Assembly: GCF_003610195.1 (NCBI RefSeq)
Contig: NZ_RAPO01000004.1
Span: forward strand, 62,001 to 126,000
Direction of reading: 5' to 3'
Source: Halopiger aswanensis
Lineage (GTDB): Archaea > Halobacteriota > Halobacteria > Halobacteriales > Natrialbaceae
DNA length: 64,000 nt
In this document: one piece after another, positions 32,634 to 36,451 of the stretch
Numbering within the stretch: position 1 is the stretch's first letter
Layout: every line of letters starts with the position of its first letter
Position numbers and translations under genes: made by a program
Notes under the pieces: model-generated
Databases searched by the model: none
What the model was told of the DNA's origin: nothing
The model's input: only the letters and a program-made list of their open reading frames with translations

Positions 32634-33247
32634 CCGAGTACAGCGGTACGAATTGCGCTCCTGATATATTTTGGCGGCTGCTCGTTGAGCGTGCCGTCAA
32701 GGTTTGAGCGGTAACCGATAGGAGCACAGGAGCCGATTACCTGATGAGATCATCCGGACTATATAGAACGAGATACAGTATATTATGATAAATATTTGCT
32801 ATCTATTCTAGACTAGTGATTGGTTTGTAAGAGAGAAAAGGAACGAAATAATCTGACCACATATATACCATTTCTTTTTATGTATCACCAATACCTCGGC
32901 CAAATAAAATGAGTTATAGGGGTATAGCCGCCATTTTTCCGCCATCTGAATATTGAGGGGAATAGTAAAGTAGCAAGGTTGACAGAGGAAATATATTCAT
33001 TACTATATTACCATAATTTGTATAGTTACGTGAGTGAGATAGTTACCTATTGTAGCTATTATAGCTATTGTACCTATCTTCGACCCCGAAGGGTGGACAA
33101 CCGCGCAAGTCAAATACCGCTAGGACGCGCTGTGAATCGACCAGAACATGCCATCTCGAGGGGAGTAAAGCGGAGTTCGGTTTTTCGGCTCAGACTGAAT
33201 AGTATCGAACGGTAAGTGTTTACAAGGGTGGGCCGAGAACTGCGTCT
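32634..33247. other. AT-rich intergenic region before the kinase gene
   Basis: Low-GC DNA without a convincing gene between the secreted arabinofuranosidase and the histidine kinase. It contains many TATA-like strings and a short tandem repeat listed separately. A 78-codon forward frame from 32979 reads through that repeat and is Tyr/Ser/Cys-rich, so it was not accepted. Confidence 0.4.
33046..33078 (+). repeat. 9-base tandem repeat
   Basis: Consecutive units cctattgta, gctattata, gctattgta and the partial cctatc follow with a strict 9-base period. The repeat is about 170 bases upstream of the histidine kinase start in AT-rich DNA. It may be a regulator-binding array or slippage product. Confidence 0.6.
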
Positions 33248-36200
33248 ATGGGTACCCCCGGGTCAGCACCGGACATTACACGGGAGGACGTGCGGGGTGT
33301 TTTTACGCAGTTCGAGCGACAAGGAATACCGATTACAGCCGCAGACGTCGCCGACGCACTCGACTGCTCGCAACGAACGGCACGCCGAGCCTTAGACGAG
33401 CTTACCGAAAGCGGCGAGGTCGAAAGGCGGGAACTCGCCGACGGGACGCGAGTATGGTGGCAGCCCGACGGCGACGACCGAACGGGGTCTGAAAGCCCCG
33501 ACGAAGCGGAGTTCGCGGCCTTCGTGAGCGCCGTCAGGGACTATGCCATATTTATGCTCGATCCGGAGGGGACCGTCGTCAACTGGAACGACGGAGCCGA
33601 ACGGATCAAAGGGTACCGAACCGAGGAGATCGTCGGCGAACACGTCTCGACCTTCTATACCGATGGCGATACCGAAGCGGGCGTCCCCGAGGAGAATCTC
33701 GAGGCGGCGGCGGACGCGGGCCGCGTCGAGGACGAAGGGTGGCGCGTCCGCAAGGACGGCACCCGGTTCTGGGCCCACGTCACGATCACCGCGATCCGCG
33801 ACGACGACGGCACGCTCCGGGGCTTTACGAAGGTTACGCGAGATATGACCGAGCGCCGGGAGTACGAACAGCGACTGCGCCGGGAGCGGGACTTCACCGA
33901 ACGGATCCTCGAGACGATCCCGGTGGGGACCTGCGTCCTGAGTCCGGACGGGAGCCTCACCCGTGCAAACCGGCGGCTGCTTACCCGACTCGAGATCGAC
34001 GATGCAGCCCTGTCAGAGTACACCGTGGACTCGTGGGAAGTCTACGACGAAGCGGGCGACCGCATTCCGCCGGCCGATCGACCCTGGGCGGAAGCCTTCG
34101 AAACCGGGGACCCCGTCTACGATTACCGGTGCCAGCTCGACGCGCCGAACGGGGACCGACGCTGGGTCTCGCTCAACGCTGCGCCGCTCGAAGACGGCGA
34201 GGATCGGCGAGTGATCCTCTCGCTCGAGGACATCACCGAGCAAAAGGAGCGCGAACGGCAACTCCGACAGCAGTACCGCCAGACGGAACAACTGCTGCGG
34301 ACCGCGCCGGTCGCCATCGCCGTGCAAAACAGCGACCGAGAGACGGTGATGGCAAATCGACGGGCGCAGGAGGTGTTCGACCTCTCCGAAGCGGAATTTA
34401 CCGCGAACCCCGTCGATACGGGAGAGTGGAAAATCTACGATGCCGACGGGAATCGACTCGAGCCGGAGGAGACGACGTCGGCCCGCGTTTTAGAAAGCGG
34501 CGAACCGGTGTTCGACGAAGAACTGATCTTCGAACTGCCGAACGGTGATCGACGACACTACCGCGTGAATACCGTCCCCGTATACGGTCCCGACGGAACG
34601 ATCGATCGCATCATCACTGCGGGGAAGGACATCACCGAACTCAAGGAACGGGAGCGACAACTCGAGCAACGAAAAGCGGAACTCGAGACGGAACTCAACG
34701 GGATCCTCGGGCGAATCTCCGACGCGTTCTACGCGCTCGACGACGACTGGCAGTTGACACACTTAAACGATCGAGCCGCCGAACTCCTCGGACAACCCGC
34801 CGAGGAGTTACTGGGACGAGAAATCTGGGACGTCCTTCCCGAGACGGACGACGAAATATACAGGACGAAGTTCCGAACGGCGATGGAAACGCAGGAGCCG
34901 CTCAATTTCGAGGTCTACGAGGACGGCACCGAGTCGTGGCTCGAGTTTTCGGTGTATCCGTCCGAATCGGGGCTCTCGATTTACTTCCGCGACGTGACGG
35001 CTCGAGTAGAGCGCGAGCAGGAACTGACGAAGTACGAGACCATCGTCGAGACGATCAACGACGGTATCTACGTCAAAGACGAGGACGGCTACTTCACGAT
35101 GGTTAACGAGGCGTACGCCGAACTCACCGGCTACGATCGCACCGAACTCGTGGGCGAACACGCCTCGTTGGTCGTCGACGAGGAGACGATCACCGAATCG
35201 CGAGACCAGATTGCGGCCGGCGTCGAAGCACCGCCGGCGATGGAGACGGAACTTCAGACGGCCAGCGGCGACCGCGTCCCGGTCGAAGGGACCTTCGCGA
35301 CGTTACAGACTGGCGACAGCCACGAGGAGATCGGCGTGGTCCGCGACGTCACCGAACGCAAGGAACGCGAACGGGCCCTCCGCGAGCGCGAACGTCGGCT
35401 CAAGGAGCACAAGGAGTTCACCGACGACGTTCTGAACGCCGTCGACGATCTGTTCTATCTCATCGATGCGGACGGCAACTTACAGCGGTGGAACGAGAGC
35501 GTAAACGACGTCACCGGCAACTCGGACGCGGAAATCGAGTCGATGACCGCACTGGACTTTTTCGACGAGGAACACGCCGAGCAGGTCGCAGCGACGATCG
35601 CCGACGGCTTCGAAACCGGCGATCTACAAATCGAAGCGAAGATTCGGACCAGGGACGGCGAAGAGATACCGTACGAGTTCACGGCATCCACGCTCGAGGA
35701 TCCCGACGGGAACGAGGTGCTCACTGGGATCGGCCGCGACATCACCGACCGTCTCGAGTACGAACACCAGCTCGAGGCGTCGAACGAACGCTTAGAGCAG
35801 TTCGCGTACGCCGCCTCCCACGACCTCCAGGAGCCGCTGCGGATGGTGACCAGTTACCTGCAGTTGCTGGAGAATCGGTACGGCGACGACCTCGATGACG
35901 ATGCCGAGGAGTTCATCGACTTCGCTGTCGACGGCGCCGAGCGCATGCGCCAGATGATCGACGGCCTCCTCCAGTACTCGCGGGTCGAAACGCGCGGCGA
36001 TCCGTTCGAATCGATCGATCTGAACGACGTTCTCGACGAGACGCTCGAGAATCTCGAACTCCAGATCGACGAAAATCAGGCCGAGGTTGTGGTCGACTCG
36101 CTACCAACCGTCCGCGGAGACGCCAGCCAACTCCAGCAGGTGTTTCAGAATCTCGTTAGCAACGCGATCGAGTACAGCGGCGATGAGCCGCCAGAGATCC

Positions 36201-36451
36201 GTATCGCTGCCGAACGAAATGGAGCGAAATACGTCATCTCGGTTCACGACGACGGGATCGGGATCGATCCCGAAGACCAGGATCGAATCTTCGAAGTGTT
36301 CCATCGGCTCCACACCCACGAAGAGCATCCGGGGACCGGCATCGGTCTCGCGCTCTGTCGGCGCATCATCGAACGTCACGGGGGCGAGATCTGGGTCGAC
36401 TCCGAACCGGGGAACGGAACGACGTTTTCGTTCACGCTGCCCCCGGCGTGA
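33248..36451 (+). CDS. HTH plus six-PAS cytoplasmic histidine kinase
   Basis: A 1067-aa sensor kinase. Residues about 9-70 form a winged helix-turn-helix (ITAADVADALDCSQRTARRAL, then SGEVERRE and a WWQP wing). Six PAS domains follow, each ending in a DITE/DVTE-type segment and joined by short RERE-rich coiled linkers (about 85-210, 215-330, 335-470, 475-590, 592-710, 715-840). HisKA has the phosphorylatable H858 in ASHDLQEPLRM; HATPase_c has NLVSNAIEYS, DDGIGIDPED and GTGIGLALCRRI. There are no membrane helices, so it senses cytoplasmic signals. Its cognate response regulator is not adjacent. A fragment of a close homologue lies at 4257-4454. Confidence 0.92.
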   Translation: MGTPGSAPDITREDVRGVFTQFERQGIPITAADVADALDCSQRTARRALDELTESGEVERRELADGTRVWWQPDGDDRTGSESPDEAEFAAFVSAVRDYAIFMLDPEGTVVNWNDGAERIKGYRTEEIVGEHVSTFYTDGDTEAGVPEENLEAAADAGRVEDEGWRVRKDGTRFWAHVTITAIRDDDGTLRGFTKVTRDMTERREYEQRLRRERDFTERILETIPVGTCVLSPDGSLTRANRRLLTRLEIDDAALSEYTVDSWEVYDEAGDRIPPADRPWAEAFETGDPVYDYRCQLDAPNGDRRWVSLNAAPLEDGEDRRVILSLEDITEQKERERQLRQQYRQTEQLLRTAPVAIAVQNSDRETVMANRRAQEVFDLSEAEFTANPVDTGEWKIYDADGNRLEPEETTSARVLESGEPVFDEELIFELPNGDRRHYRVNTVPVYGPDGTIDRIITAGKDITELKERERQLEQRKAELETELNGILGRISDAFYALDDDWQLTHLNDRAAELLGQPAEELLGREIWDVLPETDDEIYRTKFRTAMETQEPLNFEVYEDGTESWLEFSVYPSESGLSIYFRDVTARVEREQELTKYETIVETINDGIYVKDEDGYFTMVNEAYAELTGYDRTELVGEHASLVVDEETITESRDQIAAGVEAPPAMETELQTASGDRVPVEGTFATLQTGDSHEEIGVVRDVTERKERERALRERERRLKEHKEFTDDVLNAVDDLFYLIDADGNLQRWNESVNDVTGNSDAEIESMTALDFFDEEHAEQVAATIADGFETGDLQIEAKIRTRDGEEIPYEFTASTLEDPDGNEVLTGIGRDITDRLEYEHQLEASNERLEQFAYAASHDLQEPLRMVTSYLQLLENRYGDDLDDDAEEFIDFAVDGAERMRQMIDGLLQYSRVETRGDPFESIDLNDVLDETLENLELQIDENQAEVVVDSLPTVRGDASQLQQVFQNLVSNAIEYSGDEPPEIRIAAERNGAKYVISVHDDGIGIDPEDQDRIFEVFHRLHTHEEHPGTGIGLALCRRIIERHGGEIWVDSEPGNGTTFSFTLPPA

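Follow-up and report, generated by a model that had tools for sequence, protein, structure and literature searches.

In a window of 64,000 nucleotides from Halopiger aswanensis (by the window we mean this whole stretch) one gene encodes a histidine kinase of 1067 residues that joins a predicted N-terminal winged helix-turn-helix (HTH) to six PAS domains and a kinase core, and its start codon is preceded by a conserved, operator-like dyad. The explanation that we favour, with a probability of a little under 0.6, is that this soluble orphan PAS kinase uses its N-terminal HTH to bind the dyad before its own gene, represses that gene and signals to a remote response regulator.

In such a scheme the winged HTH would bind a short dyad lying over the core promoter from which the kinase itself is transcribed. 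HisKA kinases are dimers, as is established for the family, and in a dimer there would be one HTH for each half-site of the dyad. A protein lying across BRE and TATA should exclude TBP and TFB, which makes repression the likeliest effect of binding, and the kinase would thus probably be an autorepressor limiting its own amount. Sensory input to the PAS domains, or autophosphorylation itself, may alter the affinity of the kinase for the dyad, while the phosphoryl output would pass to a response regulator encoded elsewhere.

Architecture of the kinase

The reading frame is complete and starts with ATG (Table 1). Both catalytic domains are well recognised by Pfam, HisKA with 42.3 bits against a cut-off of 26.9 and HATPase_c with 116.9 bits against 26.4, and the same search finds six PAS stretches. 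What we take to be the kinase motifs are intact: SHDLQEP at residue 857, which points to H858, NLVSNA at 968, DDGIGI at 1001, IFEVFH at 1014 and GTGIGLAL at 1029; with both domains above cut-off and with H and N/G boxes present, the protein is a histidine kinase of the HisKA type. The highest mean Kyte-Doolittle value over 19 residues is 0.99, so that the kinase has no membrane segment. The first-pass annotation, which had described an HTH at about residues 9-70, six PAS domains, a kinase core and no membrane part, is in all of this borne out by Pfam, the motifs, the fold model and hydropathy. BAT and HTH_10 gave no match in the protein (phmmer comparison; 25 of the 29 Pfam families listed), and its identification as a Bat regulator, which takes BAT together with HTH_10, was rejected.

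Table 1. Positions in the window of the kinase gene, its domains, its promoter elements and upstream features
Feature	Position	Strand	Basis or remark
ORF with BNR/sialidase-like and IclR parts, 763 aa	27618-29909	+	
ORF with ASD1 domain, 848 aa	30087-32633	+	upstream of kinase
Tandem repeat of the 9-bp unit CTATTGTAG	33047-33077		3.4 copies, about 170-200 bp before kinase ATG
Candidate operator AACGGTAAGTGTT, A-type dyad 5-3-5	33208-33220	+	40 bp before ATG
TTTA of presumed TATA box	33219-33222	+	about 27 bp before ATG
HTH-PAS6-HisKA-HATPase kinase gene, 1067 aa	33248-36451	+	ORF list, translation, Pfam
Winged HTH (predicted), residues 9-73	33272-33466	+	Pfam on residues 1-96, AlphaFold2, Foldseek, VIA-align
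Presumed recognition helix, residues 42-55 of kinase HTH			model
PAS 1, residues ~91-203 (approximate limits)	33518-33856	+	Pfam
PAS 2, residues ~218-331 (approximate limits)	33899-34240	+	Pfam
PAS 3, residues ~332-468 (approximate limits)	34241-34651	+	Pfam
PAS 4, residues ~487-590 (approximate limits)	34706-35017	+	Pfam
PAS 5, residues ~591-711 (approximate limits)	35018-35380	+	Pfam
PAS 6, residues ~712-838 (approximate limits)	35381-35761	+	Pfam
HisKA, residues 849-915 (phosphoacceptor H858 at 35819-35821)	35792-35992	+	Pfam, motifs
HATPase_c, residues 957-1066	36116-36445	+	Pfam, motifs

The N-terminal winged helix

A Pfam search with the whole protein brought no HTH family above its cut-off. 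When residues 1-96 were searched alone FaeA passed (22.2 against 20.7 bits), the sole family to do so among the 25 Pfam families listed, and HVO_A0261_N and DUF7342 stayed below their cut-offs. An assignment to the MarR family was rejected, as the same residues reached 20.3 of 27 bits for MarR_2 and 14.3 of 24.6 for MarR. The domain appears to be too divergent for Pfam, and its predicted fold is that of a winged helix: the AlphaFold2 model, made from four homologues (mean pLDDT 72.5), has helices at 12-21, 31-38 and 42-55 and strands at 59-62 and 68-71, that is, the three helices and the two-stranded wing by which a winged HTH is recognised. Foldseek returned no PDB match at E <=0.001, the best standing at 1.1e-3, all its matches were of winged-helix type, and VIA-align on these matches gave Z values up to 10.7 with an rmsd of 2.0 over 66 residues. 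Zalpha folds ranked at the top of VIA-align; many DNA-binding winged-helix families score nearly as high, and therefore we do not claim Z-DNA binding.

Conservation of the HTH residues, on which the first-pass annotation had staked its proposal of DNA binding, gave a divided answer. Three residues, L49, W70 and W71, are the same in all of 52 HTH kinases; P28 is found in 51 of them, a K or R at position 61 in 50, R68 in 46 and R46 in 41, but the other positions of the recognition helix vary, even among the nearest relatives of the window kinase. Identity to the five nearest relatives is 55-78% in the HTH, 81-95% in PAS1 and 87-94% in HisKA. For two pairs of kinases closely related to that of the window, the HTH has dN/dS ratios of 0.36 and 0.41, where the PAS and kinase parts have 0.08-0.16; in five other pairs of HTH kinases its ratios are 0.19, 0.33, 0.63, 1.05 and 0.31, where the rest has 0.10-0.24. 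In six of the seven pairs the HTH is evolving faster than the kinase core, and in six of seven its ratio is below 1; it seems to be mostly constrained, more loosely than the other parts, and apparently unconstrained in one pair.

Distribution among haloarchaea

Of the 125 genomes of the family, 121 have relatives of the HTH (E <=0.001), and a profile search that scored 19 candidates per genome showed them in at least 177 of 292 Halobacteria genomes (E <=1e-15), both counts referring to the HTH and not to its fusion with a kinase. The nearest named relatives found belong to Natrinema salsiterrestre, Haloterrigena salina and Natronoglomus mannanivorans. We picked 120 HTH loci from the better matches, not at random, and judged orthology from sequence similarity: 72 carry HATPase and are kinases, 35 are Bat-type (BAT or HTH_10), two are PAS frames that break off, and 11 are without HATPase, BAT, HTH_10 or PAS. 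With 72 HTH kinases among 120 loci the architecture is a regular haloarchaeal one and no oddity of the window genome. Up to seven PAS domains per kinase were detected among the first 80 loci. The HTH-PAS frames of L070 and L086 end before the kinase core, L061 and L073 are fragments, and these broken or short frames retain the promoter stretch like intact kinases.

A candidate operator in the promoter of the kinase

Upstream of the seven nearest relatives, which belong to two genera, the sequences can barely be aligned outside the start-codon region and one further stretch, AACGN-CAA-GCGTT, continuing into TTTA. The dyad in this stretch, which we call A-type, begins 41 bp before ATG in one of these relatives and 40 bp before it in the other six. 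The version of the relatives, AACGC-CAA-GCGTT, is symmetric in all five pairs in L039, L040 and L043, and that of the window in three of five. Presumably the spacing of TTTA to ATG fits a leaderless transcript, and on this reading of the sequence the dyad would overlap the core promoter of the kinase. The gene has, in other words, what marks an autoregulator, a conserved and roughly symmetric site at its own core promoter, with the 3/5 symmetry of the window.

The site is rare in the searched genomes. The 15-mer AACGNNAAGNGTTTA occurs exactly once in each of the seven genomes of the two genera, every time 40-41 bp before the nearest relative of the window kinase, and its reversed reading, used as a control, is found in none of six genomes and once in G070. 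A 20-mer with up to three mismatches is likewise single in both genomes of the window's genus. This bears directly on the possibility that the HTH binds further promoters besides its own and makes the kinase a direct regulator of target genes, which would be compatible with self-binding but which we consider rather unlikely. Autoregulators usually have further targets, two kinases of G070 share one dyad, and looser matches do exist: the 13-mer without TTA has 34, of which 8 lie in promoters of HTH kinases and 26 elsewhere. Among ten of these 26 that were examined, however, eight fall within ORFs of at least 90 aa, and for the other two no listed ORF begins within 400 bp; one of the eight, L177 in the own genome, lies in a possibly spurious 90-aa ORF, 122 bp before an ORF of 189 aa.

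The regulon was sought by strict sequence patterns, and these gave no second clear target of the A-type pattern in the searched genomes, so that the direct control of other genes suggested by the first-pass annotation found no backing there. Its other suggestion, of a sensor kinase held at a promoter, gains from the winged HTH on a soluble kinase and from the operator-like dyad linked to it, although the promoter indicated is the kinase's own.

Further upstream, the array of CTATTGTAG units (Table 1) is one unit shorter in the same-genus relative L038.

The A-type dyad and its controls

The right arm of the A-type dyad overlaps BRE/TATA, and for this reason we anchored the promoters on the right half and scored the left arm. 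The right half is present in 57 of 74 HTH genes of the kinase/PAS class and in 57 of 936 control ORFs, the latter being naive calls (first ATG after a stop, at least 150 aa) in the fetched loci, most of them unproven as genes or promoters. With this anchor the left arm agrees in at least four of five positions in 36/57 HTH genes against 4/57 controls, and at least four of five pairs are symmetric in 13/57 against 1/57. In 43 genes whose HTHs are less than 75% identical, anchoring on TTA gives the left-arm AACG 0.26, 0.13, 0.69 and 0.76 bits, against no more than 0.05 bits in the left-arm columns of 219 controls; the strongest columns of these promoters are TTA and the preceding CAA. An unanchored profile of upstream identity is blurred.

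Scored at a fixed position, the A-type motif reaches at least 12/15 in 32 of the 52 HTH kinases of the first batch and 12 of the 20 of the second, in 0/933 control ORFs and in 0/20 kinase loci that lack the HTH (one ORF being represented by two of these loci). This scoring, like that of the Bat-type dyad below, is not blind: the motifs had already been noted when loci L117-L156 were added, but the degenerate scoring tables were drawn up with the upstream sequences of these loci known. Covariation of the arms is not significant overall, for 105 of 215 pairs match and 887 of 5000 shuffles, with a mean of 100.3, do as well, and one slid control (+2) exceeded its own shuffles, with fewer pairs (72/215). 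No coupling between HTH residues and bases in A-type genes survives multiple testing, the best p being 1.5e-5 in 4914 tests, and such p-values overstate independence because the HTH genes are mutually related. Against binding to the own promoter one must count this lack of A-type covariation and of residue-base coupling, the faster evolution of the HTH, the 28 of 72 HTH kinases that fall below the A-type score, the incomplete symmetry of the window dyad and the acidity of the window HTH (net -6, per residue about that of PAS1).

The Bat-type dyad and the type of the HTH

The promoters of Bat-type HTH genes have, at the same place as the A-type dyad, another one, TTCCG-N4-CGGAA or CTCCG-N4-CGGAG. 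At least 12/14 is reached in 15 of 16 first-batch and 17 of 19 second-batch Bat-type genes, in 5 of 933 controls and, any start codon being allowed, in 1 of 20 non-HTH kinase loci. Here the arms do co-vary: in 22 sequences 102 of 132 pairs match (shuffled mean 94.0, reached by 25 of 5000 shuffles), and the outer pair matches in 20 of 22, which 2 of 2000 shuffles reached. Each of seven genomes has a single site for the strict 14-mer; five of these sites immediately precede HTH genes (L105, L140, L149, L148 and one in G086), another falls within an ORF, and the last is intergenic with no ORF of at least 90 aa starting within 400 bp.

The six most Bat-like HTHs among the 72 kinases, those of L108, L104, L050, L124, L148 and L053, belong to exactly the kinases that have a Bat-type dyad of at least 11 at -48 to -45, where the reference HTHs are those with a Bat-type dyad and the limit of 11 was chosen after the data were seen. 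This suggests, from sequence comparison, that the dyad type goes with the HTH type and not with the output domain. Over all 72 kinases the Bat-likeness of the HTH and the dyad score are not significantly correlated (Spearman 0.16, p 0.18), because the other 66 share the A-type or a looser site, and the link rests on the extreme six of 72. Joint inheritance of adjacent HTH and promoter could also contribute, but by itself it would not explain why the upstream arm is preserved between diverging flanks. An attempt to type the HTH by a regular expression for its wing misplaced L043, L135 and L124 and was dropped in favour of similarity scores.

It is against this background that a quite improbable proposal should be seen, namely that another transcription factor binds the dyad and the HTH serves for protein contacts only or is a relic. 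Winged helices can bind proteins, and this HTH combines acidity with a lower conservation than that of the other parts of the kinase. Such an outside factor would, however, hardly account for the correspondence between dyad and HTH types in kinases and Bat regulators alike, for the dN/dS below 1 in most pairs, or for G009, where the five HTH genes examined have five different sites while a common factor would need one; in G000 three Bat-like HTH genes have similar sites. Still less probable is a core promoter of extended form (BRE/TATA, possibly one served by a particular TFB) with no operator in it, for although the right arm overlaps BRE/TATA and TTA with the preceding CAA form the strongest columns, the same right half is accompanied by the upstream arm in so few controls, and the Bat-type arms co-vary.

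Binding of the kinase to its own promoter might be a part of something wider. We put forward, tentatively and at somewhat less than even odds, that haloarchaea have a portable cassette of operator plus HTH, in which the dyad and its HTH move together before kinase or Bat outputs, so that one protein would be both a phosphotransfer sensor and a signal-gated regulator of its own gene. If true, two-component feedback would be built into the kinase, with no DNA-binding response regulator needed. The two dyad types, together with the six Bat-like kinases that have the Bat-type site, offer natural material for an experiment on specificity.

L097, L099-L101, L103, L105-L107, L109, L111-L116 and others are Bat-type regulators with an N-terminal winged HTH besides the C-terminal HTH_10, and in most of these double-HTH regulators the own promoter has a near-perfect TTCCG-N4-CGGAA.

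Relation to known systems

Autoregulatory archaeal winged-helix repressors are simple DNA-binding proteins and not sensor kinases, and their action is the same as that expected here, the own promoter being bound and the core machinery blocked. For autoregulation by an archaeal repressor PMC9426492 cites Bell and Jackson (2000); it also reports for OxsR that promoters with the motif upstream of BRE/TATA are activated and those with a motif downstream are repressed.

Bat regulators, (REC/PAS/GAF)-BAT-HTH_10, have the same kind of N-terminal HTH and an own promoter dyad in 35 of the 120 loci, but they end in BAT and HTH_10 without a kinase core, whereas the window protein ends in HisKA-HATPase. 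The cytosolic PAS/GAF kinases of haloarchaea, as treated in the portions of PMC5847659 available to us, are similarly soluble, with several PAS domains, HisKA and HATPase, and often without a neighbouring regulator; the window kinase differs by its N-terminal winged HTH and the operator-like dyad in its promoter. The census, in those portions, makes no mention of kinases with an N-terminal HTH, and describes HTHs on archaeal response regulators. LtrR and FilR1, likewise according to these portions of PMC5847659, couple an archaeal winged HTH to a two-component part as the window kinase does, but on a REC response regulator, not on the kinase itself. The same portions depict haloarchaea as having many kinases and few DNA-binding response regulators, and archaeal two-component output as working mainly through protein contacts. 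A search of the open-licence full-text literature found none that treats archaeal kinases carrying an N-terminal HTH, or the operator of such kinases. For the question of how haloarchaeal signals reach genes, one route becomes testable, a signal-gated binding of the promoter by the kinase itself.

Response regulators and gene neighbourhood

No REC domain (PF00072) was matched at E <=0.001 on the whole 582-kb contig of the window, in agreement with the earlier statement that no response regulator lies nearby, and the partner must accordingly be encoded elsewhere. This absence is no argument for a special status of the kinase, a notion that we discarded: in three genomes a REC gene within 10 kb is missing for 8 of 9 HTH kinases and for 35 of 43 other kinases, the kinases counted being the 52 of 123 HATPase matches with at least 98 bits, weaker ones having been dropped.

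Among the seven loci no neighbour is common to the two genera except an IclR-like ORF, which is found some kilobases before the kinase in four of the seven (L037, L038, L041 and L042) and is 28-36% identical between genera or distant species. The 848-aa ORF before the kinase, which carries an ASD1 (arabinofuranosidase-like) domain, is 91% identical in the same-genus genome G009, and no counterpart was found beside five kinase relatives of the other genus. In the window an IclR regulator (HTH at 508-556, IclR_C at 573-688) is in frame with a BNR/sialidase-like domain (about 194-291) within one ORF, whose last 533 aa are 91% identical in G009.
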